NCBI GenBank assembly: GCA_905221505.1
Contig: CAJNDL010000005.1
Location: 1-64,000, forward strand
DNA: 64,000 bases
Reading direction: 5' to 3'
Source: a bacterium
GTDB taxonomy: Bacteria; Bacillota; Bacilli; Lactobacillales; Streptococcaceae
Position numbers and translations under genes: made by a program. Below, in pieces: positions 2,908 to 49,114 of this stretch (its first letter is position 1; every line of letters starts with the position of its first letter). A model generated the notes under the pieces. It did no database searches, was not told where the DNA came from, and saw only the letters and a list, made by a program, of their open reading frames with translations.

Positions 2908-3372
2908 TTATTCATAGAAATCAACTTGGGTATCCAACAATTTATCCCCATCATAAACAAACTTGGCTGAAAAGAAGGGTTTGTCCTCTAAAAGCCACTC
3001 AACAAAGGTGTGGTCACCTTCCCAAGTTGGCTTGCTCAAAACCTCATCATAGGGAACCCATTCAAGCGTCCCCTCATTGCAGTCAATCAAGTCACCCTCA
3101 AACTCTGTCACCTTAAAAACATAGGTGTACCAGTCTAAATCTGGCGTAAATTCAGGAAAAGTGATAACACCTTTTAGAACTGGCTTAGCTTTGAGCCCTG
3201 TTTCTTCGAGGATTTCACGCGCCGCACATTCCTGAGGGGTCTCCCCTCGCTCTAGCTTACCACCCACTCCAATCCATTTCCCTTCATGAACATCATTAGG
3301 TTTCTTATTACGGTGAAGCATGAGCAGTTCTTTCCCGTTATCAATGTAGCAAATCGTCGCTAACTGAGGCAT
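2908..3372 (-). CDS. mutX: NUDIX hydrolase, 8-oxo-dGTP diphosphatase type
   Basis: A NUDIX protein of 154 aa with a full NUDIX box (G-G-K-L-E-R-G-E-T ... R-E-I-L-E-E-T-G-L, residues about 37-60), including the catalytic REXXEE core. In pneumococcus the equivalent gene is mutX, which removes oxidised dGTP from the nucleotide pool. It sits between ung and pyrC with gaps of about 10 bases, so a base-repair gene and a pool-sanitising gene are co-transcribed. The exact substrate is inferred from the orthologue, not from a residue seen here. Confidence 0.9.
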   Translation of the reverse strand: MPQLATICYIDNGKELLMLHRNKKPNDVHEGKWIGVGGKLERGETPQECAAREILEETGLKAKPVLKGVITFPEFTPDLDWYTYVFKVTEFEGDLIDCNEGTLEWVPYDEVLSKPTWEGDHTFVEWLLEDKPFFSAKFVYDGDKLLDTQVDFYE

Positions 3373-3381
3373 ATTTTCTCC

Positions 3382-4035
3382 TTATCTAAGCCAATCGATT
3401 GGCTCTTGTCCTGTCTCTTTTAAGAATGCATTAGCCTTGGAAAAAGGCTTGGAACCCCAAAATCCTCTGTAAACCGATAAAGGACTGGGATGGGCTGATT
3501 CGATAATCAAGTGCCGAGGATTGGTAACTAAGGCCATCTTCTTGCGTGCATAAGCTCCCCAGAGTACAAAAACGACTGGTCTATCTAGATGATTGACCAC
3601 CTGAATCACAGCATCCGTAAAAGGCTCCCAGATTTGACCAGCATGACCATTGGCCTGTCCAGCAGGAACCGTCAAACAAGCATTAAGAAGCAAGACTCCT
3701 TGCTCAGCCCAAGCCGTCAAATCATGGGATTTCTTAACACCAATGTCATCTGACAATTCCTTCAAGATATTTTGCAGGGATGGCGGAGCTGGGATAGAGT
3801 CAGGAACAGAAAAACTCAAGCCCTGCGCCTGACCTGGACCATGATAAGGATCCTGTCCTAAAATCACCACCTTCACGTCTTCTAGGGGTGTGGACAAGAG
3901 AGCCTGAAAAACCTTTTCCTTGGGTGGATAAATAGTCCCCTGAGCATAGACCTGATTCATAAACTGATTGATTTTCCCGAAATAACCCTCAGGTAATTGC
4001 TCCTTAATCAAAGCATGCCAAGACGAATGTTCCAT
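3382..4035 (-). CDS. ung: Uracil-DNA glycosylase
   Basis: Family 1 UDG, 217 aa, which removes uracil from DNA to start base-excision repair. The catalytic water-activating motif [11 protein letters not shown] lies near residues 60-70. The leucine-loop motif [18 protein letters not shown] lies near residues 182-199, with the conserved His. The length is typical. It is the first gene of the ung-mutX-pyrC-MATE run, directly downstream of an extended -10 promoter. Confidence 0.97.
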
Positions 4036-4063
4036 AGCCGACTCCTTCGTTTTTACTGCCTCT

Positions 4064-4072
4064 ATTATAGCA
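4064..4072 (-). promoter_or_regulatory. Extended -10 promoter for ung-mutX-pyrC-MATE
   Basis: On the minus strand TGCTATAAT (TGnTATAAT) occurs about 30 bases before the ung start. No good -35 is visible, which is usual for extended -10 promoters in streptococci. It abuts the upstream terminator hairpin. Confidence 0.6.
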
Positions 4073-4098
4073 AAAAGTGGCTGTCTAAACCACTTTTT
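4072..4098 (-). terminator. Terminator hairpin between the 4173-4820 gene and ung
   Basis: Perfect 9-bp arms AAAAAGTGG (4072-4080) and CCACTTTTT (4090-4098) end in a T run. It would stop leftward transcripts from the accessory stretch before ung. Confidence 0.7.
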
Positions 4099-4172
4099 AC
4101 AGTTTATCTAAACATTAAATAAATCGACTATATTTACGATTTGAATAAGTGAATGCAGTTTATAAAGAATAA

Positions 4173-4820
4173 CTATTTTTTATAATTACTTTTTAAATCC
4201 TTAAGCATTTGACTACCTCTTTCTAAAATCATCTTTTCTGAAATATTTTTAAACATATTAAAATCCATTTCAGAAAAAGGAGTTTCTTTAGAAACTTGCC
4301 ATATGGTCTTTAAATAGTTCTTTTCTAAAAAGTCGTCGAAATTAGAAAACATTCGAAAATACAATTCATTCTCTTGGTGTAAAATTGCTCTTTTTAAAGG
4401 GTAATACTCTTTAATATTATTAACTTTTTGTTCGTAGGCATATTTTGCTACATGATCTAGGTATATATCAAAAAAGTCATGCGGAAAATCTCCCATACTG
4501 CCATTACGATTCATATTGAGACTATATTTTCGATTAGTAAGATAATTCGGAAATATGTTTCCTATTACTCTAAGATTATCTACTTGAGAATCCCTTCTCC
4601 CAATATAATCCCCTTCTTTGACTAATGATGGAGATTTCCAAGTAAAAATTAAATCGCCAGAGAAATTTTTCTTATCATAAAACTTAAAAAGAGATTGATA
4701 AATACTATTTGCTAATTGACAAGTATCAGATGTAAATTCATAATTAACAGCTTCATTAAAATCAACTTCAGACATTTCAATGTACTCTTCAATAGTAATA
4801 TTAGCTTTTTTTGTAGTCAT
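4173..4820 (-). CDS. Hypothetical protein, possibly DUF6994 family
   Basis: A 215-aa soluble protein with no signal peptide or membrane segment. I do not recognise it with certainty. The pattern of an early YEF-TSDT segment, a central NMNRNGSMGD segment and a later DFFDIYLDHV plus an FDDFLEKNY region recalls the DUF6994 family, whose function is unknown. The start at 4820 has a good AAAGGAGACG ribosome site; an in-frame ATG farther upstream would run into the preceding HAD gene and is rejected. It begins 13 bases after the HAD stop, so the two are probably co-transcribed. Its base composition is visibly more AT-rich than that of ung. It may be part of the accessory stretch that continues to 9007. 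Confidence 0.75.
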   Translation of the reverse strand: MTTKKANITIEEYIEMSEVDFNEAVNYEFTSDTCQLANSIYQSLFKFYDKKNFSGDLIFTWKSPSLVKEGDYIGRRDSQVDNLRVIGNIFPNYLTNRKYSLNMNRNGSMGDFPHDFFDIYLDHVAKYAYEQKVNNIKEYYPLKRAILHQENELYFRMFSNFDDFLEKNYLKTIWQVSKETPFSEMDFNMFKNISEKMILERGSQMLKDLKSNYKK

Positions 4821-4833
4821 TAGCTCGTCTCCT

Positions 4834-5547
4834 TTAAAATGTAATCTTTTCAAGAGTATTTTTATCCAAACAATCCAGCAAATCTTGGTAAGAATGGACT
4901 TCGTAAGTCGGCTGGGCTTGTGTATGATTTTCGAGGTGATGAGGGTTGTACCAAATCGTGTCAATCCCAGCATTATTGCCACCTTGAATGTCGGCGGTTA
5001 GGGAATCTCCAATCATCAGCGTCTTTTCTTTGCTAAAACCTGCAATCTGCTGACCGATTTTTTCGTAAAAAAGTGCATCAGGCTTTTGGGTTTGCAACTG
5101 TTCAGAGATAAAAACTTGATTGAAATAAGGTGCCAGAGCCGATTGAGCCAAACGCCCCGTCTGAATGGCAGTAATGCCATTTGTCGCAGTATACAAGTCA
5201 TAATCACGCTCGATAAGGCTGTCTAAGAGTTCATGAGCGCCTGAAAGAGTTTGTCCCTGCTGGGCGAGGTAAAATTGGTAACGCTGGGCTAGAAAACTAC
5301 CGTCTTTTTCCTGTCCAAAATGAGAAAATAAACGAGAAAAGCGCGTGTTAACCAGCTCTTGTTTACTGATTTTCTTTTGCTCCAAGTCCTTCCAGAGAGC
5401 CTTGTTCATGGGAACATAATAATCTTTATAAGCCTGAATATCCGCAACTCCTTCTTCTTTTAGAAGTTGCGTCAAAGCCACATCCTCAGCAACATCAAAA
5501 TCAAGCAAGGTGTGGTCAAGGTCGAAAAGTAGAAATTTGTAGGACAA
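4834..5547 (-). CDS. HAD-superfamily phosphatase, YjjG-like (probable 5'-nucleotidase)
   Basis: HAD hydrolase of 237 aa. The nucleophile motif FDLDHTLLDFD is at the N-terminus, motif II is near the TATNG segment, and motif IV MIGDSLTADIQGG is near residue 184. YjjG-type enzymes remove phosphate from nucleoside monophosphates, including damaged or non-canonical ones. I place the start at a TTG (5545-5547) because an AGGAAA site sits 8 bases upstream, and the family begins just before the FDLD motif. The ATGs at about 5595 would add 16 unmatched residues. It heads a small unit with the hypothetical gene at 4173-4820. Confidence 0.88.
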   Translation of the reverse strand: MSYKFLLFDLDHTLLDFDVAEDVALTQLLKEEGVADIQAYKDYYVPMNKALWKDLEQKKISKQELVNTRFSRLFSHFGQEKDGSFLAQRYQFYLAQQGQTLSGAHELLDSLIERDYDLYTATNGITAIQTGRLAQSALAPYFNQVFISEQLQTQKPDALFYEKIGQQIAGFSKEKTLMIGDSLTADIQGGNNAGIDTIWYNPHHLENHTQAQPTYEVHSYQDLLDCLDKNTLEKITF

Positions 5548-5595
5548 TTTGAGAGTTTTCCTTTCTAAGGGAGCAAAATTTAACATCATGTTCAA

Positions 5596-5963
5596 ATATG
5601 TTTACATTATACGATAAGAATAGTAGTCACTTCTCTAGCGAATGCTATCATATTTGAATTATATGTAAATCATTAGTCAGCTTGAACTTTACTGAAACGA
5701 ATTGCAAACGGATTATTTCAGCGAGAGCTATCATAAGTTTGAAATAGATTTCTAAAAGTATTCTGCATTAGAGGCACCTTTAACTTTCTTAACAGATAAC
5801 ATTATGCATACCGAGTCTAAATCTATGAAGAACTACTTCAAATTAAATAAAGAAAATGCGTAAGATAATCGTAAGTACTACTTCATCTTTTATGTTGAAT
5901 CCGTGAAAGAAAGTAAGTTGACTAGGAATTACTACTATCAGAAAACTTTGAGAAATCTAAATT
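5596..5963. other. Gene-free AT-rich spacer
   Basis: No ORF worth calling. On the minus strand a TATAAT at 5606-5611 could be the HAD promoter -10; no good -35 is seen. GCTATCATA occurs twice in the same orientation (5644-5652 and 5727-5735), each followed by a TTTGAA-TA-AT stretch. This suggests a decayed short direct duplication. Confidence 0.4.
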
Positions 5964-6089
5964 AAGAGGCTGGGCAAGAAGGTTTTAAAATCAAAAAAAC
6001 GCATAATATCAAGTGTTGAAAACTCTACGTTTTATTGTGGAACAATTTACTTCCTTTTCTTTTGAAATTGAGTTTTTGCCAAGTCTCTT
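5964..6089. repeat. MITE-like or terminator-like element with imperfect inverted ends
   Basis: A segment of about 126 bp is bounded by a 17-base end (5964-5980, AAGAGGCTGGGCAAGAA) and its imperfect reverse complement (6073-6089), matching at 14 of 17 positions. There is no ORF inside. The GGCTGGGCAA-type end resembles ends of small non-coding insertion elements common in streptococci (SPRITE/MITE class). It lies just beyond the stop of the leftward nuclease gene and could also end its transcript. Confidence 0.45.
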
Positions 6090-6092
6090 TTT

Positions 6093-6923
6093 TTACAAAA
6101 AATCACTTAAATCTATCTCAGTTGCAATTCTTTCGTAGATAATCTTTTTAGGAGTATTAGCCACACATCTAAATATCCCCTTAAACACATAATAGGTATT
6201 TCCTAATACATCCTTAAAATGTGCAAACACAATAGAGTTTTTTATATCCTTAACCTCCATATTTCCGTTAGACTTAGTTTGTTCAATAATCGATCCATCA
6301 CTTGAAATAGTATTAATCCAGTCAGCATTAGGATATAATTTAGGAAACCACAACTGAAGGTCTTCTCTCAATAAAAAAGTGGCACGTTGATGACTCTTAA
6401 CTTCTTTTCCAAAAAGTTTCAATACATCTACATGAGTTCTAAATTTAGCAGTATCCATTATATGAATAACACCATTTTCAATCCACTTTTTGACAGAGTA
6501 TTCTTGTCTATAAGAGTACGGAACAAAGGTTTTAGAATTTTGCTTTAGCACCTTAATTTTATTTACTAATTGGTCAATCTGGTGATTAACGCTCTCAAAA
6601 GAAGCATTTTTTGTACAATTAATTCTTTCAAACTTAGTGTTCAATAAATGAATCACTTCTTTTTCTCTGTATTTATCAGCTTCTTCCTGTGACAAATGAT
6701 GAGACTCGTCAATTTCAATAGCCAGTTTGAATTGTGGAAAATAAAGGTCAATCAAATAGCGCCTTCCATCAGGTTTTTTCACAATTTGTTGTGTTGTAAA
6801 CTGAATTTCAAAATCATTTAGCAAATGAATGATGCGTGAAATGACATAAAATTCGTATTTCTTATACTTAATCTTAGTCAACATTTTTGAATAGTATGTC
6901 AATTCATCATAGTTTGTACTCAT
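6093..6923 (-). CDS. PvuRts1I/AbaSI-like modification-dependent (type IV) restriction endonuclease
   Basis: A 276-aa protein. The N-terminal half (about residues 18-115) matches, as I recall it, the Vsr-like nuclease half of PvuRts1I: a YEFYVISRIIHLLNDFEI helix, then PDGRRYLIDLYFPQF with D59, then AIEIDESHH with E70, D72 and nearby His. The C-terminal half has WFPKLYPNADW, SSDGSIIEQ and a VFAHFKDVLGNTYYVFKG strand, as in the SRA-like base-flipping domain that reads 5-hydroxymethyl- or glucosyl-hydroxymethylcytosine. Total length also fits (about 280-310). Such enzymes cut phage DNA carrying modified cytosine and need no methylase; none is encoded nearby. The family call is from remembered sequence patterns. 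The gene lies directly downstream of another predicted type IV enzyme. Confidence 0.8.
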   Translation of the reverse strand: MSTNYDELTYYSKMLTKIKYKKYEFYVISRIIHLLNDFEIQFTTQQIVKKPDGRRYLIDLYFPQFKLAIEIDESHHLSQEEADKYREKEVIHLLNTKFERINCTKNASFESVNHQIDQLVNKIKVLKQNSKTFVPYSYRQEYSVKKWIENGVIHIMDTAKFRTHVDVLKLFGKEVKSHQRATFLLREDLQLWFPKLYPNADWINTISSDGSIIEQTKSNGNMEVKDIKNSIVFAHFKDVLGNTYYVFKGIFRCVANTPKKIIYERIATEIDLSDFL

Positions 6924-7067
6924 AATATTTCTCTCTTTTATAAACTGATTATTATTTCACACTTAGCTTAAATATTTATTTTACTACATAGAAATCATAA
7001 ATGACATCCTACGATTGTCATGATACTTACATTCCAACAAATAACATCTTAATGACTTTGTTAAAAT

Positions 7068-7202
7068 TTATAAAGAAGTTCTTAAAGTTAAACTGCGGTC
7101 TGATGTATTTCTGATTATTGAACCATTACGTTTATAAATTCCAGAATCTAAACCTTTCTGAATATTTAATGGAATTTCTATAGTAACTTGATTTAATGAC
7201 AT
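7068..7202 (-). CDS. Small ORF of 44 aa, possibly a truncated gene
   Basis: ATG at 7202 to TAA at 7068, beginning 35 bases after the GmrSD-like stop. The peptide opens with MSLNQVTIEIPLNIQ and has KGLDSGIYKR and GSIIRNTS, a regular beta-rich pattern with balanced charge that looks like real coding sequence. It lacks a strong ribosome site (only AGAGA). It may be the surviving N-terminus of a longer small protein or a true micro-protein of the restriction locus. I cannot name a function. Confidence 0.45.
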   Translation of the reverse strand: MSLNQVTIEIPLNIQKGLDSGIYKRNGSIIRNTSDRSLTLRTSL

Positions 7203-7237
7203 AATTATAACTTATCTCTTAATTCTATCGTTCTAGT

Positions 7238-9007
7238 TTATTCAAAAATAAAATCAGCAATTCGTTTAGCAGATTTTTCTGTTGCCAGTTCAATGTCAGT
7301 TTTAGTCCAGGTGTCATTTACATAATTAACAAGAGATTTAGCTATTGGAAACTTACTACCTATATAGCCATGACCACTTGTGATTGTATTCTCTCTTTTT
7401 GTTCTAAACCAAGCATCTCCAATTCCACGATTAATTTCGGATTCAAGGAGAATCTTATTACCAAGCTTCTCAGCATAATCTTTAAATTCTTCCTGGCTTT
7501 CTAGTCCAGCATCTGACAAAATATTTTCTCTATTCAAACCACTTTGCGGCATAATGTGTTCAATATCAATATTTCCATTTAAATTAAAGTCCATACCTTT
7601 TTCCAATGAAAATAGGAATTCATTTACATAAAGAATAGAATTTGAAACACCACTTTCAGTCAAAGTTTGTTTAACGTCTTCATAAACAAAATTAGTATGA
7701 ATATGGTTCTTTATTTTTGAAATAAGTTCGTCGATTGAAATTGAATCGACTTGACTGTACATCAGATTAATTTCTTCTAGGAAGCCTTTAAAAAGTTTAT
7801 GGCTATATGAGAGTTCAGATAATTCAATCAAAACTCCAAGTCTAAGTAGGTATTCCAGATATGTGTTGTCTTGTCTGAAAAATAAATAACTACTAACAAA
7901 AGGTCGTAAATTACCGTTTAATTTGTTTATCAATTGACCATTGATAGTATCAGATACTCGTTCAAAATTGTTTATGATTGTATTTAGTTCAGCAGTAAAC
8001 AGAACATCTTCATTCAATAGATGTTTATTTTTTGAGAAAAAGGCTCTTATACCAGGATTTCTTCGATCAGCACCGTTTTGTTCTGAGAGTTTTACGAAAA
8101 TATAGTGAGTAATTAACGCATTTAAGTCTAATCTAGATGAATCTGTACGTTTTACAATCTCTTGCCAATTTTTTTCGAAGTTTTTCCTATCTGATGCGTT
8201 TGCGGTGGTCTTAGATACGATTACTTCAATTGGGGTCAATGGAACACCAGTCCCATTTAAAGAATTGAAAATATTTATAGCCTGATCAGTATTATAACTT
8301 GTAATAGTAATCACTTGGCAATTATCAATAAAGTGGTTAGCAAAATTGATAAGAGTAAAAACATTCAATTCGTTACACATATTGTAAAAATATCTAAAGT
8401 TTTTATAGTAGTTAGTATAGCGGTTGTCTTTCTGACGACGATAGATTTGGTGAACTCTATCTTTAATAGATATAAAATCTTTACCTAGCAAGATAGTAGT
8501 CATCTCACTAGCATATTTTTCTGAAATCGAATGATTTAGATACTTTATTCTATCATCGCCAGGATAATACAGTCCATCAACGAAATCATCTTTTTCGTCA
8601 TCTGAAACATTGAAAAGCATTGTTACAATCTGCTCTTTAAGACCATTAAGACGTTTCACTAATCTGCGTGCATCAATATCTAGAGTCGGTTGAAGTTCAA
8701 GCTCATTATCAATCTTCAATAAGATTGCCTTAAGAAGTAACATAAATGTCGTTGTTCTTTGCTGGCCATCAATCAAGGTTACTTCATGCTCTTCTCCAGA
8801 TTCTTGAGCAATGAGAACAGCTCCAAAGAAATAATTGTCTTGGGAACTATCATCGAAATTTTCCATATGAAGATTAATATCTTCAATGAGTTGTTCACAT
8901 TGTGGTACTTGCCAAGCATAGGGTCTCTGATAGGTAGGAATATAAAATTCTGATTTTTCAAAATAAGATTTTACTTTTTGTAAGGCCGGTTTAATATCGT
9001 TTCTCAT
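7238..9007 (-). CDS. GmrSD-like type IV restriction protein (DUF262 + DUF1524/HNH)
   Basis: A 589-aa protein. DUF262 (GmrS/ParB-like NTPase) motifs are at the N-terminus: IPTYQRPYAW at 23-32 and IDGQQRTTTF at 79-88, the latter the DGQQR nucleotide-site motif. The C-terminus carries the DUF1524 His-Me nuclease: IEHIMPQ with E483-H484, then LGNKILLESEIN. Fused GmrSD proteins (Eco94GmrSD, BrxU, SspE relatives) cut DNA with glucosylated hydroxymethylcytosine or other modifications using NTP. Both catalytic motifs look intact. It has its own promoter and no methylase partner. Which modification it senses is unknown. DUF262 proteins are diverse, so a role other than type IV restriction is possible but less likely. 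Confidence 0.85.
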   Translation of the reverse strand: MRNDIKPALQKVKSYFEKSEFYIPTYQRPYAWQVPQCEQLIEDINLHMENFDDSSQDNYFFGAVLIAQESGEEHEVTLIDGQQRTTTFMLLLKAILLKIDNELELQPTLDIDARRLVKRLNGLKEQIVTMLFNVSDDEKDDFVDGLYYPGDDRIKYLNHSISEKYASEMTTILLGKDFISIKDRVHQIYRRQKDNRYTNYYKNFRYFYNMCNELNVFTLINFANHFIDNCQVITITSYNTDQAINIFNSLNGTGVPLTPIEVIVSKTTANASDRKNFEKNWQEIVKRTDSSRLDLNALITHYIFVKLSEQNGADRRNPGIRAFFSKNKHLLNEDVLFTAELNTIINNFERVSDTINGQLINKLNGNLRPFVSSYLFFRQDNTYLEYLLRLGVLIELSELSYSHKLFKGFLEEINLMYSQVDSISIDELISKIKNHIHTNFVYEDVKQTLTESGVSNSILYVNEFLFSLEKGMDFNLNGNIDIEHIMPQSGLNRENILSDAGLESQEEFKDYAEKLGNKILLESEINRGIGDAWFRTKRENTITSGHGYIGSKFPIAKSLVNYVNDTWTKTDIELATEKSAKRIADFIFE

Positions 9008-9037
9008 TCAAATTCTCCAATAATCTTTTCTGATGAT

Positions 9038-9066
9038 ATTATACCACTAAAACGCTAACAATTAAA
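9038..9066 (-). promoter_or_regulatory. Promoter of the GmrSD-like gene
   Basis: Minus strand: TTTAAT (9061-9066), 17 bases, then TATAAT (9038-9043) preceded by TGG, giving an extended -10. It lies about 30 bases before the start codon at 9007. Confidence 0.6.
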
Positions 9067-9545
9067 CACTAACTATGTCCGAACTATCTAACGATTTAAT
9101 TCCCTTTTAACGATTACATCTTTGGAATCTTAACAAGTTATACCATTATAATTTGAAATCTATCTACACCCCTAAATAATACCAAAAAGCCTTCAAATTT
9201 TTAAGTTTCAAGGTTTTTACTGCATTAAATTGTAATATCTAACTTCTACTGTTTTCGAAGAGTATAATTTAATAACTTGAAAAAAATTCGAATACTCTCC
9301 TATACAACTGACAGCCCAAATCTTTCAGAATAGAACAATTCTAACTATCGAATAACTCAACTTCATAAATATCTATGTAATTCTAGACCTAGAATTCCTA
9401 TAAACAAAATGTTTTCGCACTATTCTAAGCCATTGATTGCCTTAAGTTTTAATTTTTGAAGGATTCTAAAGCTAGAATAGTCCCATCACAATCTGTTTTG
9501 AATGATTCACAATTTAGAAACGCTATGATTCTACTCCTTTTACAT
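9067..9545. other. AT-rich spacer without genes
   Basis: I see no coding region here. At 9252-9267 the 16 bases TTTTCGAAGAGTATAA are identical to the boxC end of the BOX element at 29197-29303, so this may be the stump of a deleted BOX repeat. Short palindromes such as ATTCTA-AAGC-TAGAAT occur near 9466-9481. Confidence 0.45.
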
Positions 9546-9546
9546 T

Positions 9547-9574
9547 AAAAAGGAACTGCTCAAGCAATCCCTTT
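9547..9574 (-). terminator. Terminator of dhaKLM
   Basis: On the minus strand a hairpin with arms AAAGGGATTGCT and AGCAGTTCCTTT and a 2-base loop is followed by further T residues. It lies about 80 bases beyond the dhaM stop. Confidence 0.65.
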
Positions 9575-9656
9575 CTGATTCTGTAATAATCTACTTAAAA
9601 TTTGATAGTTGAGATAATCAATAGCCCACCTATAAAAAGAGTTATAGCAAAATTCC

Positions 9657-10031
9657 TTATTTATTGATTTCAAGCTCCGCCAACTGTGTTTGAATAACTG
9701 ACAGTTCTGCCCCAGCCTGAAGAAGAGCAGCTGCAGTATAGGCACCTTCTACAATTGGAACACTGTTGATGATGATACTCTTATCACTGAAATCAGCCAC
9801 CATTTCTAAATTCATTTTAGCAGAACCTAGGTCAAAAAAGGCAAGTAAAGTATCTGCTGGATTTTCGGAAACAACCCTATCTACTTGATCAAAACTAGTT
9901 CCAATTCCTCCGTCCTCGGTTCCTCCTACATAAGTAATCGGAACATCTTTAGCCACTTCACTAATCAGTTCAACAAGACCTTGTGCAATGTGTTTGGAAT
10001 GTGAAACGATAACAAGACCAATACTTCCCAT
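9657..10031 (-). CDS. dhaM: Dihydroxyacetone kinase phosphotransfer subunit (EIIA-like DhaM)
   Basis: A 124-aa mannose-type EIIA domain protein. In PTS-linked dihydroxyacetone kinases, DhaM takes phosphate from HPr and passes it to the ADP cofactor bound in DhaL. The N-terminal IGLVIVSHS segment places the phospho-accepting His near residue 10, and GTSFDQVD plus FFDLGSAKMN motifs follow. It has only the EIIA domain, like other Firmicutes, without the HPr/EI fusions of E. coli DhaM. Its start overlaps the dhaL stop by one base. Confidence 0.93.
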   Translation of the reverse strand: MGSIGLVIVSHSKHIAQGLVELISEVAKDVPITYVGGTEDGGIGTSFDQVDRVVSENPADTLLAFFDLGSAKMNLEMVADFSDKSIIINSVPIVEGAYTAAALLQAGAELSVIQTQLAELEINK

Positions 10032-10606
10032 TAAACCACCCCAGTTTCTAAAAGAGCAGTAAAGAGTAATCCTGATGAAAATGATCCAGGGTCAATATGT
10101 CCGAGAGATCGCTCTCCTACATAAGATGCTCTTCCTTTAGTTGCAAGTAAATCTTTGGTAGCATTCACTACCTGATCAATAACCTCTTGAGTCAACTGGC
10201 CATCAGACAAGGCAGCAATAACAGGAGTCCAAACATCAACCATTGTCTTTTCTCCAACTTCTGCTTTCCCACGTTTGACAATCATATCCAAACCGCTTTG
10301 TAAGATTTCTTCTAATTTCGAATTTGAATCAGCCTTGGCCATGCCCATAAAAGCAGAGCCATACAGAGGACCAGAAGCACCGCCTACCTTACTCAGTAGT
10401 TGCATTGAGACAAGTTTAAAAACATCACTGCTTGTCTCAAATTGCTTTCCTTCTAAGTTTTCCATAACTGCAGCCATGCCACGCGCCATATTTCCACCGT
10501 GGTCTCCATCTCCTATAGGAGTGTCTAGCTCACTAAGGTAATCTTTCTGTTCTTGAATCTTTTCATTAAAAAGCTTCATCCATTCAAGAGCTTGTTCAGC
10601 ATTCAT
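10031..10606 (-). CDS. dhaL: Dihydroxyacetone kinase ADP-binding subunit DhaL
   Basis: A 191-aa helical-barrel subunit holding ADP/Mg, which is rephosphorylated by DhaM and phosphorylates the dihydroxyacetone bound on DhaK. The metal-binding motif DTPIGDGDHGGNMARGM lies near residues 29-45, and the nucleotide-cap segment VGGASGPLYGSAF lies near residue 75. The order dhaK-dhaL-dhaM with short gaps is the standard operon. Confidence 0.95.
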   Translation of the reverse strand: MNAEQALEWMKLFNEKIQEQKDYLSELDTPIGDGDHGGNMARGMAAVMENLEGKQFETSSDVFKLVSMQLLSKVGGASGPLYGSAFMGMAKADSNSKLEEILQSGLDMIVKRGKAEVGEKTMVDVWTPVIAALSDGQLTQEVIDQVVNATKDLLATKGRASYVGERSLGHIDPGSFSSGLLFTALLETGVV

Positions 10607-41947: not shown

Positions 41948-42826
41948 TTAGCTAAAAACCTTTCTTGGCTTATAGAGATTGTCCCGTTTTTCTAGAATGG
42001 CTAGCAATTTATCGCCTTCAAAAGCAGCCAATTCTTGGTCTGTTTGGTCGAGCTCGATAAAACGACCAAAGCGCACTTCTGTAGCCTCTTCTGGACTTAG
42101 GAAAACTTTGACGAGGTCCCCTGTCCCAATCTCTAGAGGATGGAGAAAGTCTAATTGCCCAGCCTCCACTTTTGTAGCAATTTCTTCCAAGGTAAGAGCA
42201 TCCTCCAGTTGTAAACCTGCCGCACTAGTCCGTGTCAGATGTGACATATGGGCTGCATAACCAAGCTTCTCTCCCAAGTCAACTGACAAAGTACGGATAT
42301 AAGTTCCCTTACTGCATTTCACACGAAAAGTAAAGCGTGCAAGTTCTCCGTCATAAGAAATCGGACTTGTTCGTTCAAATTGATAAATGGTCACCTGACG
42401 TTCTGGACGTTCCACTTCCTGACCAGCACGCGCATACTCATAAAGCTTACGACCATTGACCTTGACAGCCGAGTACATAGGCGGAATCTGGGTAATAGAC
42501 CCAGTCAAATTGGCTATCGCTTCATCAACAAGATTTTCATCCAAGGGCGACAAAACAGGGGCCTCTTCGACCACTTCCCCACTAGCATCCTCTGTCGTCG
42601 TTGAATAGCCGAGAGTAATCTCCCCCACATAGACCTTACCCTCATCCTGCATGAACTCGACCATGCGTGTCGCCTTGCCAACCGCAATCGGCAAAACACC
42701 CACTACATCCGGATCCAAGGTCCCACCATGACCAATTTTCTTAGTTCCCAAAATCTTACGCAGTTTAAAAACCGCATCATGCGAGGTCATCCCCGCTTCT
42801 TTTTTTAAGTTGATAATACCGTTCAT
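41948..42826 (-). CDS. truB: tRNA pseudouridine-55 synthase
   Basis: A 292-aa TruB that makes pseudouridine 55 in the T-loop of tRNA. It begins [17 protein letters not shown]. The catalytic Asp is in [16 protein letters not shown] near residue 39, and later [14 protein letters not shown] is conserved. It begins 19 bases after the AAA+ gene, so the accessory cassette upstream is probably transcribed into truB. Confidence 0.96.
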
Positions 42827-42845: not shown

Positions 42846-43931
42846 TCATAAAATATCTTCTTCAAGAATTGTAATGTAATTATCTTTTGTAACAAAAGAT
42901 AGTGTGGCTAATCTTATTGCTTGGTTCATAATTATCCTGTCAAATACATTTCTTACAAATCGCCCATTTGCATTTTTATTTTCAGGATTGCAACTATGTA
43001 ATTCTAAATATTTTTTTAATTTTTCTTTTGCAGAATCATGCAAAATGTACTCTTCAATTTTGCAATATGAAAGAAAAATATCAAACATTTGGTCCACAGT
43101 ATAATCTTCAAACGTAATAAAATAATTAAATCTTGATTTTAACCCAGGATTAGATTCAAAAAATTTTTTCATTAATTCATCATATCCAGCAACAATAACC
43201 ACCAAATCATCACGATAATCTTCTAATGCTTTTGTTAACTCAGTTAAACACTCTCGACCATAACTATCACTTTTATCGTTTTCAGTAATACTATATGCTT
43301 CATCAATAAACAATACACCACCTTTGGCTTTTTGTATCAATCTCTTCACTTTCGAAGCCGTCTGTCCTTGATATTCTGCTATTAAGTCTGTTCTACTTGC
43401 CTCTATAAAGTGACCTTTACTTAGTATTCCTAGAGAACGATACATATTACCAACAATTCTAGCAACTGTTGTCTTACCAGTACCTGGATTACCTAAAAAC
43501 GCCATATGCATAGTTCTATTTGTTTTTTTAAGACCGATTTTTTCTCTACTTTGTTGAACTTTATTAAATGCGACTAGATCTTCAATCTCTTTCTTCACAT
43601 TTTCTAAACCTATTAATGACTTTAAATCATTTGCTAGTGCTTCAAATGATTTATTATTTGTTTCTTTCAAAATCAAATAATTTGTATCAATAACTCTAGA
43701 GCCAAGATATTTATATAATAATTCCAATATGCTAGTTTGCTTATCTTTGATTTTAGAGAATGTCTCTTTAGTAGTTAAGTTTCCTAATAGTTTTATAAAC
43801 TCTAAGTCAGCATTTTTAACATTATTAACAATATCTTGAAGAATTACTTCTAATTCATAAGTACTATTTGTTAAATCATCCAGTTTTTTCACTTCCGATT
43901 TTAACAATTTTAAATAAGTTTCACTAATCAT
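42846..43931 (-). CDS. SpoVK/CbbX-type AAA+ ATPase of an HNH/coiled-coil cassette
   Basis: A 361-aa protein. A helical N-terminal region (1-100) leads into an AAA+ module. Walker A is GNPGTGKT at 147-154, the pore loop is EYQGQTASKV, Walker B is VLFIDEA at 206-212, the Arg finger is in NPGLKSRF near 267, and sensor 2 is in NGRFVRNVF. This is the SpoVK/CbbX/EccA clade, whose members remodel partner proteins; there are no membrane segments. It begins immediately after the stop of the tail-anchored gene, with AAAGGA inside that gene's last codons, so translation is coupled. I infer that it acts on the two membrane partners. It is visibly more AT-rich than truB. Confidence 0.88.
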   Translation of the reverse strand: MISETYLKLLKSEVKKLDDLTNSTYELEVILQDIVNNVKNADLEFIKLLGNLTTKETFSKIKDKQTSILELLYKYLGSRVIDTNYLILKETNNKSFEALANDLKSLIGLENVKKEIEDLVAFNKVQQSREKIGLKKTNRTMHMAFLGNPGTGKTTVARIVGNMYRSLGILSKGHFIEASRTDLIAEYQGQTASKVKRLIQKAKGGVLFIDEAYSITENDKSDSYGRECLTELTKALEDYRDDLVVIVAGYDELMKKFFESNPGLKSRFNYFITFEDYTVDQMFDIFLSYCKIEEYILHDSAKEKLKKYLELHSCNPENKNANGRFVRNVFDRIIMNQAIRLATLSFVTKDNYITILEEDIL

Positions 43932-44732
43932 CTACATTCCTTTAAACAATAGAAATAATACTATTATAACAACAGCGACTCCAAGAGTATAGAATCCTTT
44001 TCTAAGGAAACTAATCTCTTTTTGTTTTTCCTCTAGTTCAGTTTGAAATTTCTCGACAATTAAAGTAAGATTTTTACCTTCCTCTATTAATCGAACATTC
44101 ATCTTGTCTACATCGTTTTTAAGATTATTTTGTGTTTCTTCAACTTGTAAATGCAAATCGTTAAAACTATTTTCTATTTTCACTAATGATTTTAGCTTCG
44201 CTTTTAAACTATCAATTTCAATTTGAATTTCACTTTGCTTATCTTCAAGTTGTTCTAACTCTTCTAGCTTGTTATGATGTTTCTTCAATATATCAATTAA
44301 ATCTTTATTCTGTTTAAAAACATCATCTAATAATTTTTTATTACCAGTTTGATATTCTTCTATTTCGTGCAATCCCTGTATAGCTTTATTATTTGCCTCT
44401 TTGGCTGCAATCAAAGATTTTGAAATACTTTGAATATACTCATCATCCAATATTTGGAAAGTTTCGTAAATAGTATTAAATTCTTGAATAATCTTTTTTA
44501 TGTGAATATTTTGTTCAATCATTCTATTTTGAACAGCATCAGTAAGAGCGTTCAAATCTTTACCCTTAACATCATATTCCATTCCAATAAATCCTAACAT
44601 AGGATCATCTGTTGGAACTGTTGGTAAATCTGACTGTTCAGGGATCTCTTCACTAAAGGCTTTTAGCTCTTGTTTTTTTTCATTAAATCTTTCAGAATTT
44701 GCTAAAACTTGAATCTCTAATTCTTCTGACAT
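43932..44732 (-). CDS. Tail-anchored coiled-coil protein
   Basis: A 266-aa protein. An acidic N-terminus has a Pro/Asp patch LPTVPTDDPMLGF at about 36-48. Long heptad-rich coiled coils run from about 75 to 245. A single C-terminal membrane helix at about 247-263 is followed by only three residues, the layout of a tail-anchored protein facing the cytosol. I recognise no named family. It lies between the HNH/membrane gene (9 bases away) and the AAA+ gene (0 bases), so it is likely a structural bridge of that cassette at the membrane. Confidence 0.8.
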   Translation of the reverse strand: MSEELEIQVLANSERFNEKKQELKAFSEEIPEQSDLPTVPTDDPMLGFIGMEYDVKGKDLNALTDAVQNRMIEQNIHIKKIIQEFNTIYETFQILDDEYIQSISKSLIAAKEANNKAIQGLHEIEEYQTGNKKLLDDVFKQNKDLIDILKKHHNKLEELEQLEDKQSEIQIEIDSLKAKLKSLVKIENSFNDLHLQVEETQNNLKNDVDKMNVRLIEEGKNLTLIVEKFQTELEEKQKEISFLRKGFYTLGVAVVIIVLFLLFKGM

Positions 44733-44741
44733 AACATTCTC

Positions 44742-46412
44742 CTATAATAAATCGTTTAATGCATTTTGCATTTCTTCAAGTTCACTTTGCTTTTCATCAA
44801 AGTAAATTTCATTAGCTAATAATCGCTGTTTGAAATCAATCTTTAAATTAGAAAACTCTTCATCAACATTGCCAAGTAGTTCTCTTAGTTTTTGATGGTT
44901 CTTAGCCATCTTACTGAAGATATCATTTCGCTTAACAGCAACATTTTGCTCGGCAACAAAAATTTGAACATCCTGAATTCTTAGCAATTCGTTCTTCTTA
45001 TTAGCTTGTTTCTTTTGATTTTCCTCAATTAACTTTCTGGAAATAAATTGATCAATTCCATTAATAATTATTGCTCCCAAAATTCCGGTTAGTAAACTAG
45101 CTAAAAACATTCCTAGAATATTTGCAATTTTTCCTAAATATTTAATTTCTTTATTGAAGGCTTTTATTTTTTTAAAATAATTTTCAAAATACTCTCCTAA
45201 AAACATTGCTCCTACACCTACTAATGCAGAAATAATGATTTTTGAAATATGGGCAATTTTAATCTCAGTAGAATGAGACTGGTTTTCAGGGTTTGATAAA
45301 TAAGAAATACTTTCTCTTATTGAGCCAAATATTTGTTTAACTACGTTTGTGATTTTTTGAAGTTTTTGATTGATTGCTCCAATAATTTCCCCCACTATAC
45401 TTCCAACAAAACTGTCTACACCCACTTTAATAAAATCTCTAATTTTACCAAAGAAGGAATGAAGTGCATTTTTCATTTCATCTAAGAATGTATCAAACGA
45501 TCGTTTTTTAGATTTAAAAAAACGAACCAAAGCATTCATTATTTCTTTCAACATCCCAAATAACGCTGCAACAAACATAGCTTTAACTGCGTCTTTACCT
45601 GCCTTGTTCGCCATTCTAACCGCAGCTTTCTTTGCTATTGGTTTATACATAGCTTTCTTTGCACTTTTTTCAGCTTTAATCATCTTATCTGAATCAGCAG
45701 CCAATTTATCATTTAATTTTTTATTATTTTCAGCCTTAAGATTTCGCTTTTCGGCATCCGAGATATTCATCTTATCAATTTTTTTATTAGCTCTTTCAAC
45801 TTGTTCTTTTAGATTTTTTTCTCTCGCTTCTCTATTCTTTATATAGTCACTATTTGATGTTGCTCCTTTACTTTTATTCAGCGATTCATTAGTTGCTGCA
45901 AAATTTTCCTTTTTATTTGCTAAATCAGCAGTTTCAATATCTGCAATTTTCCTCCATGTGTTTTCAAAAATCTGTTTTCTTGGTATGACGTGATCCAAAT
46001 TAGCTTTTTCGTTAATTTTTATTGTTTTTCCAGTATATTCATCCTTTAAATTTCCATTTTTTTGCCTTTCTTTCATAGCATTATTTGCATCAGTATACCT
46101 TTTATCTTTCATTATTTTAGCACCCTCTTCTTTTGTATAACCATTAGGATTTTTATCGTTATACTGCTTAAGAAGCGTGTCGCTTGTCATATCTAAACCA
46201 ATTTGGTTCGCAAATTGACTCCAAATTTCATCTAAAATGACATCTCCTAATTTATCCGGTAAACTAATTTCTTTACATTCTAGTTCTAATTTCTCAAGAT
46301 TAGAGAACTCCATTGTAAATTGCTGTTCCAATAGTTCTTCTAACTCATCATAGTTTAAATTTTCAGACTCATTTACTTCTTCAGTATTCAATACTAATAA
46401 TTCATTTTCCAC
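44742..46412 (-). CDS. HNH endonuclease domain fused to a membrane region
   Basis: A 556-aa protein. Residues 124-182 form an HNH-type nuclease: DEYTGK, then LDHVIPRK with D140-H141, then ENFAATNESLNKSKG with N170/N179 and K182. The zinc cysteines often seen are absent. A Lys/Glu-rich stretch follows (190-275), then amphipathic and hydrophobic segments near 278-297 and 330-347 and two clear membrane spans near 390-408 and 430-453. The C-terminus (455-556) is coiled coil. A nuclease tied to the membrane suggests attack on incoming DNA or an effector that also perturbs the membrane. It starts 7 bases after the DUF2130 stop. I do not recognise the full architecture. Confidence 0.82.
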   Translation of the reverse strand: MENELLVLNTEEVNESENLNYDELEELLEQQFTMEFSNLEKLELECKEISLPDKLGDVILDEIWSQFANQIGLDMTSDTLLKQYNDKNPNGYTKEEGAKIMKDKRYTDANNAMKERQKNGNLKDEYTGKTIKINEKANLDHVIPRKQIFENTWRKIADIETADLANKKENFAATNESLNKSKGATSNSDYIKNREAREKNLKEQVERANKKIDKMNISDAEKRNLKAENNKKLNDKLAADSDKMIKAEKSAKKAMYKPIAKKAAVRMANKAGKDAVKAMFVAALFGMLKEIMNALVRFFKSKKRSFDTFLDEMKNALHSFFGKIRDFIKVGVDSFVGSIVGEIIGAINQKLQKITNVVKQIFGSIRESISYLSNPENQSHSTEIKIAHISKIIISALVGVGAMFLGEYFENYFKKIKAFNKEIKYLGKIANILGMFLASLLTGILGAIIINGIDQFISRKLIEENQKKQANKKNELLRIQDVQIFVAEQNVAVKRNDIFSKMAKNHQKLRELLGNVDEEFSNLKIDFKQRLLANEIYFDEKQSELEEMQNALNDLL

Positions 46413-46419
46413 TGCTTCC

Positions 46420-47694
46420 TCATTCCCCCTTCAGTGCTTCAAATTTCGCTTTCATAGTTGGATTTTTCCGAGTTAATTTTTTGACGGAGACATCTTCCAG
46501 TTTGTTGTTTGCAAGACGGAGTTGGTTTTCGGATGTGGTTAGGAACTTCTTAACCTCTTCCATGCGTTTGATAGCCTTGTCGATTTCATCGATAGCTTTG
46601 CCAAAGTTGGTCGAAGCTGAATTGTAGTTCTTAGCAAAAGCTAGTTTAAAGGCATCCAAGTCTTCTTCAAAATGTGTAATATCAATGTTTTGTTCACGCA
46701 CCAAGGCCAGCTCCTGCTTGTATTTAAGAGAATTAAGCGCCGCATTACGCAAGAGACCAATCAGCTGGATAAAGAACTGAGGACGAACCACATACATCTT
46801 TTCATACTCGTGACTAACGTCAACAATCCCTGTGTTAAAGTAGTCGTTATCTGCCTCAAGCATGGTCACCAACACGGCATACTCACAGTTCTTTTCACGA
46901 CGGTCCTTATCCAATTCCTTATAGAAATCTGCATTCTTGTGCTTCTTCTCTGTGCCGTCCGCTTCATTTTTCATCTCAAACATGATGGAAATGATTTCCA
47001 CCCCATTTTCATCACTCTCACGGAAGATAAAGTCCCCTTTAGACCCACGCGCAGAAACCTTGTTATCCTTCTCAAAGTAAGCATTTGGAAAGGCAAAACT
47101 GCGGATCTTGTTAAACTCACTTTCTGCATACTGTTCCAGACTTTCCCCAATCGCTTTTGTGGATTGTTGAGCCTTGAAATTCTTGTAAAATTCGACTTGT
47201 TCACTGGCTGCTTTAAGCTGGACTTCATAGTTTTGTTTAACAGAAGCCAAAGACAACTCATTTTCCTTTTCTTGTAATAGCAACTGATTTTTGACCTGAT
47301 CTCGTTCTTTTTCAAGGTCAGAAAGGGTCTTTTGCAGTTGATTTTCATGCTCTAAACGCAAGGTGGCCAATTGGTTTTCCAAGGCCTGCACTTCCTTGTC
47401 CTTTGCTAATAAGGCCTCATGACTTGTCTGTTCAACTTCTTTCTTGGCCAATTCTTTTTCTGTACCAAAGTTTTGGATTTGACTCTGCAATTGAGCAATT
47501 TCTTGGTCTTTTTGAGCCAGTTTAATCTGTTGTTCATTCATAGCCTTTTGCTCAGCCAAGGCCAGTTCCTGCTTCATGCGGTCGTGTAATTCCTTATCAA
47601 ACTCTGCCGTTCTCACTTGGGACAAGAGTTCGGCATACTGGCTTTCATTTACTGTAAAGACTTCCCCACAGTTAGGGCATTTGATTTCGTTCAT
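46420..47694 (-). CDS. DUF2130 protein (zinc ribbon, coiled coil, nuclease-like core)
   Basis: A 424-aa protein. The N-terminal CPNCGEVF is half of a zinc ribbon. A Gln/Glu-rich coiled coil spans about 25-175. The DUF2130 core (about 185-340) has GDFIFRE, IMFEMKNEADGTEKK and KDRREKNCEYAVLVTML, resembling PD-(D/E)XK-type cores such as RmuC. The function is unproven. A DUF2130 gene is, as I recall, at this place in pneumococcus, so it is probably a resident gene with the three-gene cassette added behind it. It has its own extended -10 promoter. Confidence 0.85.
   Translation of the reverse strand: MNEIKCPNCGEVFTVNESQYAELLSQVRTAEFDKELHDRMKQELALAEQKAMNEQQIKLAQKDQEIAQLQSQIQNFGTEKELAKKEVEQTSHEALLAKDKEVQALENQLATLRLEHENQLQKTLSDLEKERDQVKNQLLLQEKENELSLASVKQNYEVQLKAASEQVEFYKNFKAQQSTKAIGESLEQYAESEFNKIRSFAFPNAYFEKDNKVSARGSKGDFIFRESDENGVEIISIMFEMKNEADGTEKKHKNADFYKELDKDRREKNCEYAVLVTMLEADNDYFNTGIVDVSHEYEKMYVVRPQFFIQLIGLLRNAALNSLKYKQELALVREQNIDITHFEEDLDAFKLAFAKNYNSASTNFGKAIDEIDKAIKRMEEVKKFLTTSENQLRLANNKLEDVSVKKLTRKNPTMKAKFEALKGE

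Positions 47695-47789: not shown

Positions 47790-49114
<1,325 letters not shown>

Follow-up and report, generated by a model that had tools for sequence, protein, structure and literature searches.

A mobile three-gene cassette of an HNH nuclease-membrane protein, a tail-anchored coiled-coil protein and an AAA+ ATPase as a candidate anti-invader system

In a 64,000-nucleotide stretch of a Streptococcaceae genome (GenBank assembly GCA_905221505.1, contig CAJNDL010000005.1, positions 1 to 64,000; the whole stretch is called the window below), three genes stand between a DUF2130 gene and truB, and they raise the question of whether they form a system and what such a system might do. A reading made from the letters alone (the sequence-only reading) had described them as a same-strand cassette, more AT-rich than truB, for an HNH nuclease fused to membrane spans, a tail-anchored coiled-coil protein and an AAA+ ATPase. 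All three open reading frames (ORFs) were found where that reading had placed them, on the minus strand at 42846-46412, with the lengths and gaps it had given. The transcribed order is the DUF2130 gene, the HNH protein, the coiled-coil protein, the AAA+ protein and truB, with intergenic spacings of 7, 9, 0 and 19 bases, respectively. The GC fractions (0.296 for the HNH gene, 0.280 for the coiled-coil gene and 0.277 for the AAA+ gene) are indeed low against 0.413 for the DUF2130 gene and 0.463 for truB. In the nearest genome (G001; G and L numbers denote our genomes and loci), DUF2130 ends 9 bases from truB and both flanks match the window; the trio is an accessory insertion at this junction. 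The features are as follows.

44742..46412, minus strand: HNH nuclease-membrane protein, 556 amino acids, GTG start, effector candidate (ORF; PDC-M40B homologue; DH, N, N, N, K conserved)
45843..46052, minus strand: HNH (Tox-DHNNK-like) region of this protein, residues ~121-190 (24-sequence alignment; motif as described in a section of PMC3482391)
45063..45257, minus strand: main membrane module of the HNH protein, residues 386-450, glycine-rich (hydropathy, conservation)
43932..44732, minus strand: coiled-coil protein with a C-terminal membrane anchor, 266 amino acids, adaptor or sensor candidate (ORF; relatives adjoin the HNH gene)
43938..43994, minus strand: predicted tail anchor, residues 247-265 of the coiled-coil protein (hydropathy 2.3; 20 of the 23 relatives, window included, end in such a span)
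42846..43931, minus strand: AAA+ ATPase of the SpoVK/CbbX/EccA clade, 361 amino acids, controller candidate (Pfam AAA and AAA_lid_6, NCBIfam; closest solved chain CbbX)
43467..43493, minus strand: Walker A, residues 147-155 of the AAA+ protein (10-sequence alignment)
43296..43316, minus strand: Walker B, residues 206-212 of the AAA+ protein (10-sequence alignment)
41948..42826, minus strand: truB, downstream flank, outside the system (ORF; label from the sequence-only reading; relatives in 26/26 genomes)
46420..47694, minus strand: DUF2130 gene, upstream flank, outside the system (Pfam PF09903, E 8e-82)

The three genes form a real unit. We used samples of 197 Streptococcus genomes, of 398 genomes of the phylum and, outside the genus, of one genome per species, and these sets overlap (L077, L092 and L098 with G066, G094 and G093). 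The HNH protein was matched in 14/197 Streptococcus genomes, the tail-anchored protein in 11/197 and a trio-type AAA protein (at least 298 bits) in 11/197, with G073 additionally carrying a truncated AAA alone. The tail-anchored and trio-type AAA genes occurred in the identical 11 genomes, and the HNH gene adjoined them in a constant order in all 11. Among the matches listed, the next-best AAA proteins scored at most 251 bits, and those above 130 bits lay in ORFs of 437-1006 amino acids. Not all of these trios are intact: both the HNH and AAA genes are broken in G064, and the tail-anchored gene is apparently split in G182. Of the three further HNH matches, two are deletion remnants (in G162 and G078); the third, in G105, is a related HNH domain within an Rhs-like ORF (E 2e-7). 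In the G162 remnant, HNH residues 1-243, with the nuclease residues retained, run into the AAA lid and then into foreign DNA. The truncated AAA remnant of G073 (L209, ~2988-8288) is 93-94% identical to the AAA protein of G182 and lies a few kilobases from Rhs-like and SMI1/KNR4-like ORFs, both named by eye.

In the scan of one genome per species, relatives of the HNH protein were found at 27 loci, and the AAA gene accompanies them at 23. The four AAA-less loci are L082 (at a contig end), L101 and L102 (HNH fragments) and L090 of Bacteroidales, where the HNH and tail-anchored genes are followed by a WYL-domain gene. The tail-anchored profile also matched 23/27 loci, tblastn adding L079, and in L099 the slot of the tail-anchored gene holds an unrelated-looking ORF. 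The full gene order was found in Streptococcus (one record being S. pneumoniae), Lachnospiraceae, Clostridium, Eubacterium, Bacillaceae and Paenibacillus, and also in Paramuribaculum (Bacteroidota) and Treponema (Spirochaetota), three phyla in all. Thus, the grouping proposed by the sequence-only reading is not confined to the lineage of the window. The HNH profile matched five of the 398 genomes of the phylum, with a complete trio in G222 and only partial matches, to the nuclease region, in the other four. Pairwise distances between the proteins were correlated across 23 trios, among them some near-copies and L099, where no relationship of the second gene is recognisable (rho 0.78 for HNH-AAA, 0.56 for HNH-tail-anchored and 0.58 for tail-anchored-AAA); the observed rho was reached by 0, 1 and 0 of 2000 permutations, respectively. 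At L211 (G278, 6507-10046), the nuclease region stands alone in a 499-residue ORF, followed by ORFs of 521 residues (with a hydrophobic N-terminus) and 134 residues, without the trio.

The HNH protein combines nuclease-like and membrane features. D140, N170, N179 and K182 are kept in 24/24 aligned sequences, and H141 and N166 in 23/24; this alignment excludes the copy of G038, the motif of which deviates. The residue conservation foreseen in the sequence-only reading, including the DH at 140-141, is therefore largely borne out, each position being kept in at least 23/24 apart from the exception of G038. The spacing of the signature also equals that of the Cas9 HNH domain. A section of PMC3482391 describes Tox-DHNNK as a clade of HNH/EndoVII nucleases with a 'DH, N, N, N, K' signature, largely confined to polymorphic toxins and listed alongside Imm-SUKH immunity proteins. 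Judged by its residues, the signature of the HNH protein fits this description. A Tox-DHNNK profile was neither matched nor identified in the libraries used, and the Pfam HNH_4 match was below threshold (17.2 against a cut-off of 22 bits). Tox-DHNNK domains of polymorphic toxins are C-terminal, whereas the domain of the trio lies at ~121-190 of 556, with a membrane module behind it in 24 members. Hydropathy predicted strong spans at 386-404 and 432-450 and weaker ones at 278-296 and 327-345, and G427, G434, G443, G446 and A447 are invariant across the 24 sequences. The AlphaFold2 model was weak (mean predicted local distance difference test score, pLDDT, of 54), and no relatives of the HNH family were found in PDB, where the plasmid set gave one de novo protein at E 0.19.

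For the coiled-coil protein of 266 residues, hydropathy predicted a single span, residues 247-265 at the C-terminus, in agreement with the anchor that had been proposed. A C-terminal span was present in 20 of 23 tail-anchored relatives, window included, the exceptions being L043, L044 (where the ORF is short and a second ORF lies behind it) and L099. AlphaFold2 modelled the protein as all-helical with low confidence (mean pLDDT 66). A small extra ORF (~130-155 residues) lies between the HNH and tail-anchored genes at L078, L083, L085, L087, L100 and L112. The versions of L085, L087 and L112 show a weak match to the profile of the HNH protein (E 1e-4 to 5e-8), and each is perhaps a duplicate of the C-terminal coiled coil of that protein. 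The trio on a plasmid of Lactococcus lactis (NZ_CP065734) has a small extra gene at this position, like several Bacillota loci.

The ATPase carries AAA and AAA_lid_6 domains (Pfam). It scored 284 bits with SpoVK (cut-off 423), 235 with CbbX (cut-off 459) and 220 with EccA in NCBIfam, below the curated cut-offs of all three alike, so that it is placed in their clade without being a CbbX or SpoVK equivalog. The closest solved chain is CbbX 3zuh (E 4e-59, residues 99-360). The domain pair is common to CbbX, SpoVK and EccA; in contrast to them, the trio protein has ~98 additional N-terminal residues and other partners. Walker motifs and arginine finger had been called intact. Across 10 AAA sequences including the window, Walker A (147-155) varies only at G152, which one sequence replaces by A; Walker B (206-212) shows no variation, nor does R267 in the arginine-finger region.

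Is the trio a system already described? The sequence-only reading knew of none, and this stands for the trio as such: no such system was found described in open-licence PubMed Central full text, and searches of PADLOC, Pfam, NCBIfam and PHROGs gave no family corresponding to it. It does not stand for the HNH protein, which matches PADLOC PDC-M40B (E 1.8e-8, residues 95-514). The effector candidate thus belongs to a listed candidate family, and the trio is undescribed in the literature searched. PDC-M40 is a phage-defence candidate of PADLOC consisting of an SMI1/KNR4 protein, an HNH-membrane protein and a coiled-coil protein. We examined five of 60 records of plasmid relatives, and hhalign of the trio HNH family with five plasmid and phage relatives gave 99.9% probability over 381 columns; the homologous HNH-membrane proteins have identical DH...N...N..K spacing. 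A gene pair on an E. coli plasmid matches PDC-M40B and PDC-M40C, and the Klebsiella relative is flanked by genes matching PDC-M40A (annotated SMI1/KNR4) and PDC-M40C. The two PDC-M40C proteins examined have a moderately hydrophobic stretch (1.5-1.6) at the C-terminus, where the coiled-coil protein of the trio has its anchor. No PADLOC match to PDC-M40A was found in the trio or DUF2130, and none to PDC-M40C for the window protein or its relatives of L044, L046, L078, L088, L090 and L112. A profile comparison of PDC-M40C with the tail-anchored protein gave no recognisable homology (hhalign 0.3%, with only two sequences on one side). No AAA match was found in the ORFs examined near the plasmid PDC-M40 genes, three before and five after, and the Klebsiella B gene had no DNA relatives in E. 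coli genomes. Because B alone is matched and A and C are not, the trio is related to PDC-M40 yet is without two of the three PDC-M40 components. The comparison suggests that membrane nucleases of a single family have alternative partners, AAA+ here and SMI1/KNR4 in the Klebsiella locus. More distant nuclease relatives, on a Duffyella plasmid and in Aeromonas phage LAh10, are paired with PDC-M09A instead; among Aeromonas phages, such a relative was seen in three, each recorded twice, and in LAh10, the one of these six records that was examined, the ORFs looked at had no AAA match.

Two other systems bear comparison. Type III-A extensions of CoCoNuT, as a part of PMC11090510 describes them, are a predicted defence setting in which an ATPase of the SpoVK family is paired with a protein of nuclease-related fold bearing a bacteriocin-like glycine zipper; on the other hand, the ATPase described there is tandem and CDC48-like, the nuclease fold is an inactivated PD-(D/E)xK and the surrounding genes are VWA and McrBC-like. 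The resemblance is best regarded as analogy, not membership. The trio AAA+ protein also weakly matches IetA (32 bits, residues 105-217 only); an IetS-like protease was not found among the trio genes and the two flanks, and the trio is not assigned to Iet.

The trio seems to be horizontally mobile, as indicated by its positions and relatives. It or its remnant occupies five chromosomal sites in Streptococcus. The HNH protein of G182 is 80% identical to a Lachnoclostridium copy and 28% to that of the window, and the HNH protein of G139 is 88% identical to the Lactococcus plasmid copy and 23% to that of the window. In the tree, the window and its S. mitis relative stand apart on a long branch; 10 of the 25 inner branches are open, so that by itself the tree is no proof of inter-phylum transfer. 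The values of dN/dS among the window, G066 and G047 were 0.13-0.15 for HNH, 0.10-0.20 for the tail-anchored protein and 0.09-0.12 for AAA; together with the recurrence of the set in three phyla, this speaks against a chance grouping. Where they occur, the genes are maintained in working form, and they are frequently lost or broken. Near 17 loci, mostly outside Streptococcus, we scanned 147 of 148 ORFs (one of >1100 residues was excluded). Among the best 25 of 41 and 25 of 84 PADLOC families matched, and the best 25 of 71 and best 25 of 72 from Pfam, the neighbours included AbiEi/ii, mad2/mad3, type I restriction-modification, type II methyltransferase, GajB-like and WYL families, as well as recombinase or transposase domains.

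What might such a unit do? We give about an even chance to the reading that the trio is a mobile membrane-tethered nuclease system aimed at phages or other incoming DNA, because of the homology to PDC-M40B, the conserved nuclease residues, the co-occurrence of the three genes, the many sites and the neighbouring defence and mobile-element genes. The effector would be the protein with the Tox-DHNNK-like HNH domain in its N-terminal third and the glycine-rich membrane module. The coiled-coil protein, tethered to the membrane through its ~20 C-terminal residues, would be an adaptor or sensor that positions the nuclease, and the cytosolic ATPase of the CbbX/SpoVK clade would be the controller, pulling on or reshaping one of its two membrane partners. 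Until an invader is sensed the nuclease would be restrained, and the action of the ATPase would then activate it. The anatomy of the trio is compatible with the membrane sensor/effector complex that had been proposed; the three proteins presumably join in a physical complex and reside at the membrane in the cell, and from family knowledge we infer that DNA is the substrate and invaders are the target. If the anti-invader reading is true, nucleases of polymorphic toxins are tied to intracellular immunity via a CbbX-like remodeller, and the PDC-M40 candidate gains a mechanism hypothesis. The set is compact, with three genes, conserved catalytic residues in both nuclease and ATPase, and a distribution over three phyla.

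Within the anti-invader reading, an ATPase acting as activator rather than antidote is a tentative proposal, to which we give somewhat less than an even chance. It is not likely to be an obligatory antidote, since remnants with the nuclease domain lack AAA, the HNH and tail-anchored genes of L090 stand without it, and none was seen among the ORFs examined near the PDC-M40 genes.

Several points weigh against the anti-invader reading and its activator version. Each of the facts just given has an escape; for example, the remnants may be without expression or under another regulator. Catalytic residues are not kept everywhere: L085 is the aligned copy departing at H141 and N166, and the G038 copy has E, R and R at positions 140, 179 and 182. 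The neighbour scan had no control loci and therefore is not an enrichment test. No papers naming PDC-M40 were found in open-licence PubMed Central, and a part of PMC12409345 reports that two other PDC candidates showed no activity when tested. The scan of viral contigs gave one relative from 285 pattern matches, and the ORF coordinates and scores of this relative equal those of the Lachnoclostridium locus L087. Finally, the sequence-only reading had looked to a defence island, and the site of the window does not provide one. DUF2130 was matched in 188 of 197 genomes, and among these we picked 60 DUF2130-truB junctions, mostly of near kin: 21 were empty (<60 bp), two held 60-400 bp and 37 held at least 400 bp. 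Ten representative proteins of these inserts include an abhydrolase, an acetyltransferase and a pyridine-nucleotide oxidoreductase, and one of the ten (a helicase) had a PADLOC match. The junction is thus a generic variable site with mixed inserts, and its role as a defence hotspot is unsupported. The trio itself was found in none of the 60 sampled junctions.

A more specific picture, which we consider rather unlikely, is an ATP-driven membrane restriction machine, in which a CbbX-type ring would pull the nuclease or its tail-anchored partner, and the toxin-derived HNH protein parked in the membrane would cut or block entering DNA. If true, this would be a class of defence with an AAA+ remodeller gating a membrane DNase, in place of an immunity protein or a signal nucleotide.

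A system of the addiction or toxin-antitoxin type, in which the HNH toxin is restrained by the AAA+ protein (by SMI1/KNR4 in PDC-M40) and loss is costly, would agree with the polymorphic-toxin clade that PMC3482391, in the section cited, lists with SUKH immunity proteins, with the SMI1/KNR4 gene adjoining the nuclease in the Klebsiella locus and with the existence of plasmid copies. We regard it as quite unlikely, given that the HNH and tail-anchored genes (L090) persist without AAA and HNH-domain remnants without AAA or the tail-anchored gene, and that loss and decay in chromosomes are frequent.

Interbacterial antagonism, with the toxin-like nuclease delivered to neighbouring cells and an EccA-like AAA+ protein as secretion helper, appears improbable to us. 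The Tox-DHNNK motif (as given in the same section), the Rhs-like ORF of another streptococcus and the EccA score of the ATPase would suit it, but the nuclease occupies the N-terminal third, unlike the C-terminal domains of polymorphic toxins, the membrane module follows it in 24 members, and no family of secretion leaders was recognised on the HNH protein in Pfam or NCBIfam.

Similarly, we see little prospect for a non-immune module of membrane quality control or stress, in which the AAA+ protein would remodel membrane proteins and the HNH domain would serve in repair or as a scaffold. CbbX-type AAA+ proteins are general remodellers, and purifying selection acts on all three genes, but the sporadic presence (11/197), decay and repeated relocation, together with the conserved nuclease residues, stand against it. 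A selfish homing element, whose HNH nuclease would drive insertion of the three genes at the truB junction and elsewhere, is highly improbable, for the insertion between flanks intact relative to G001 and the HNH family membership are set against five unrelated Streptococcus sites, the lack of clear terminal repeats at the element ends (only short repeats, possibly due to chance), and a membrane module and conserved AAA+ partner that would be superfluous for homing. A prophage structural module was also rejected, as PHROG tape-measure matches were weak (E 6e-4) and the viral-contig scan gave the one relative.

Some minor observations concern the locus and its surroundings. Predicted promoter sites for the trio were not above those of shuffled sequence (20 found against a mean of 19.0). 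AT-rich tandem arrays of genes for proteins of 265-283 residues occur at junctions L148, L153, L154, L160, L161 and others; these proteins have predicted N-terminal membrane segments and TPR-like parts, and 34 inserted ORFs make up one similarity cluster. Several array members share near-identical C-terminal ~60 residues after differing N-terminal parts. At 47790-49066 of the window, two overlapping ORFs of 340 and 88 residues have a frameshift-like relation to a single ORF elsewhere, the counterpart in G066 and G162 being one ORF of 434-469 residues that is 99% identical over the shared part.

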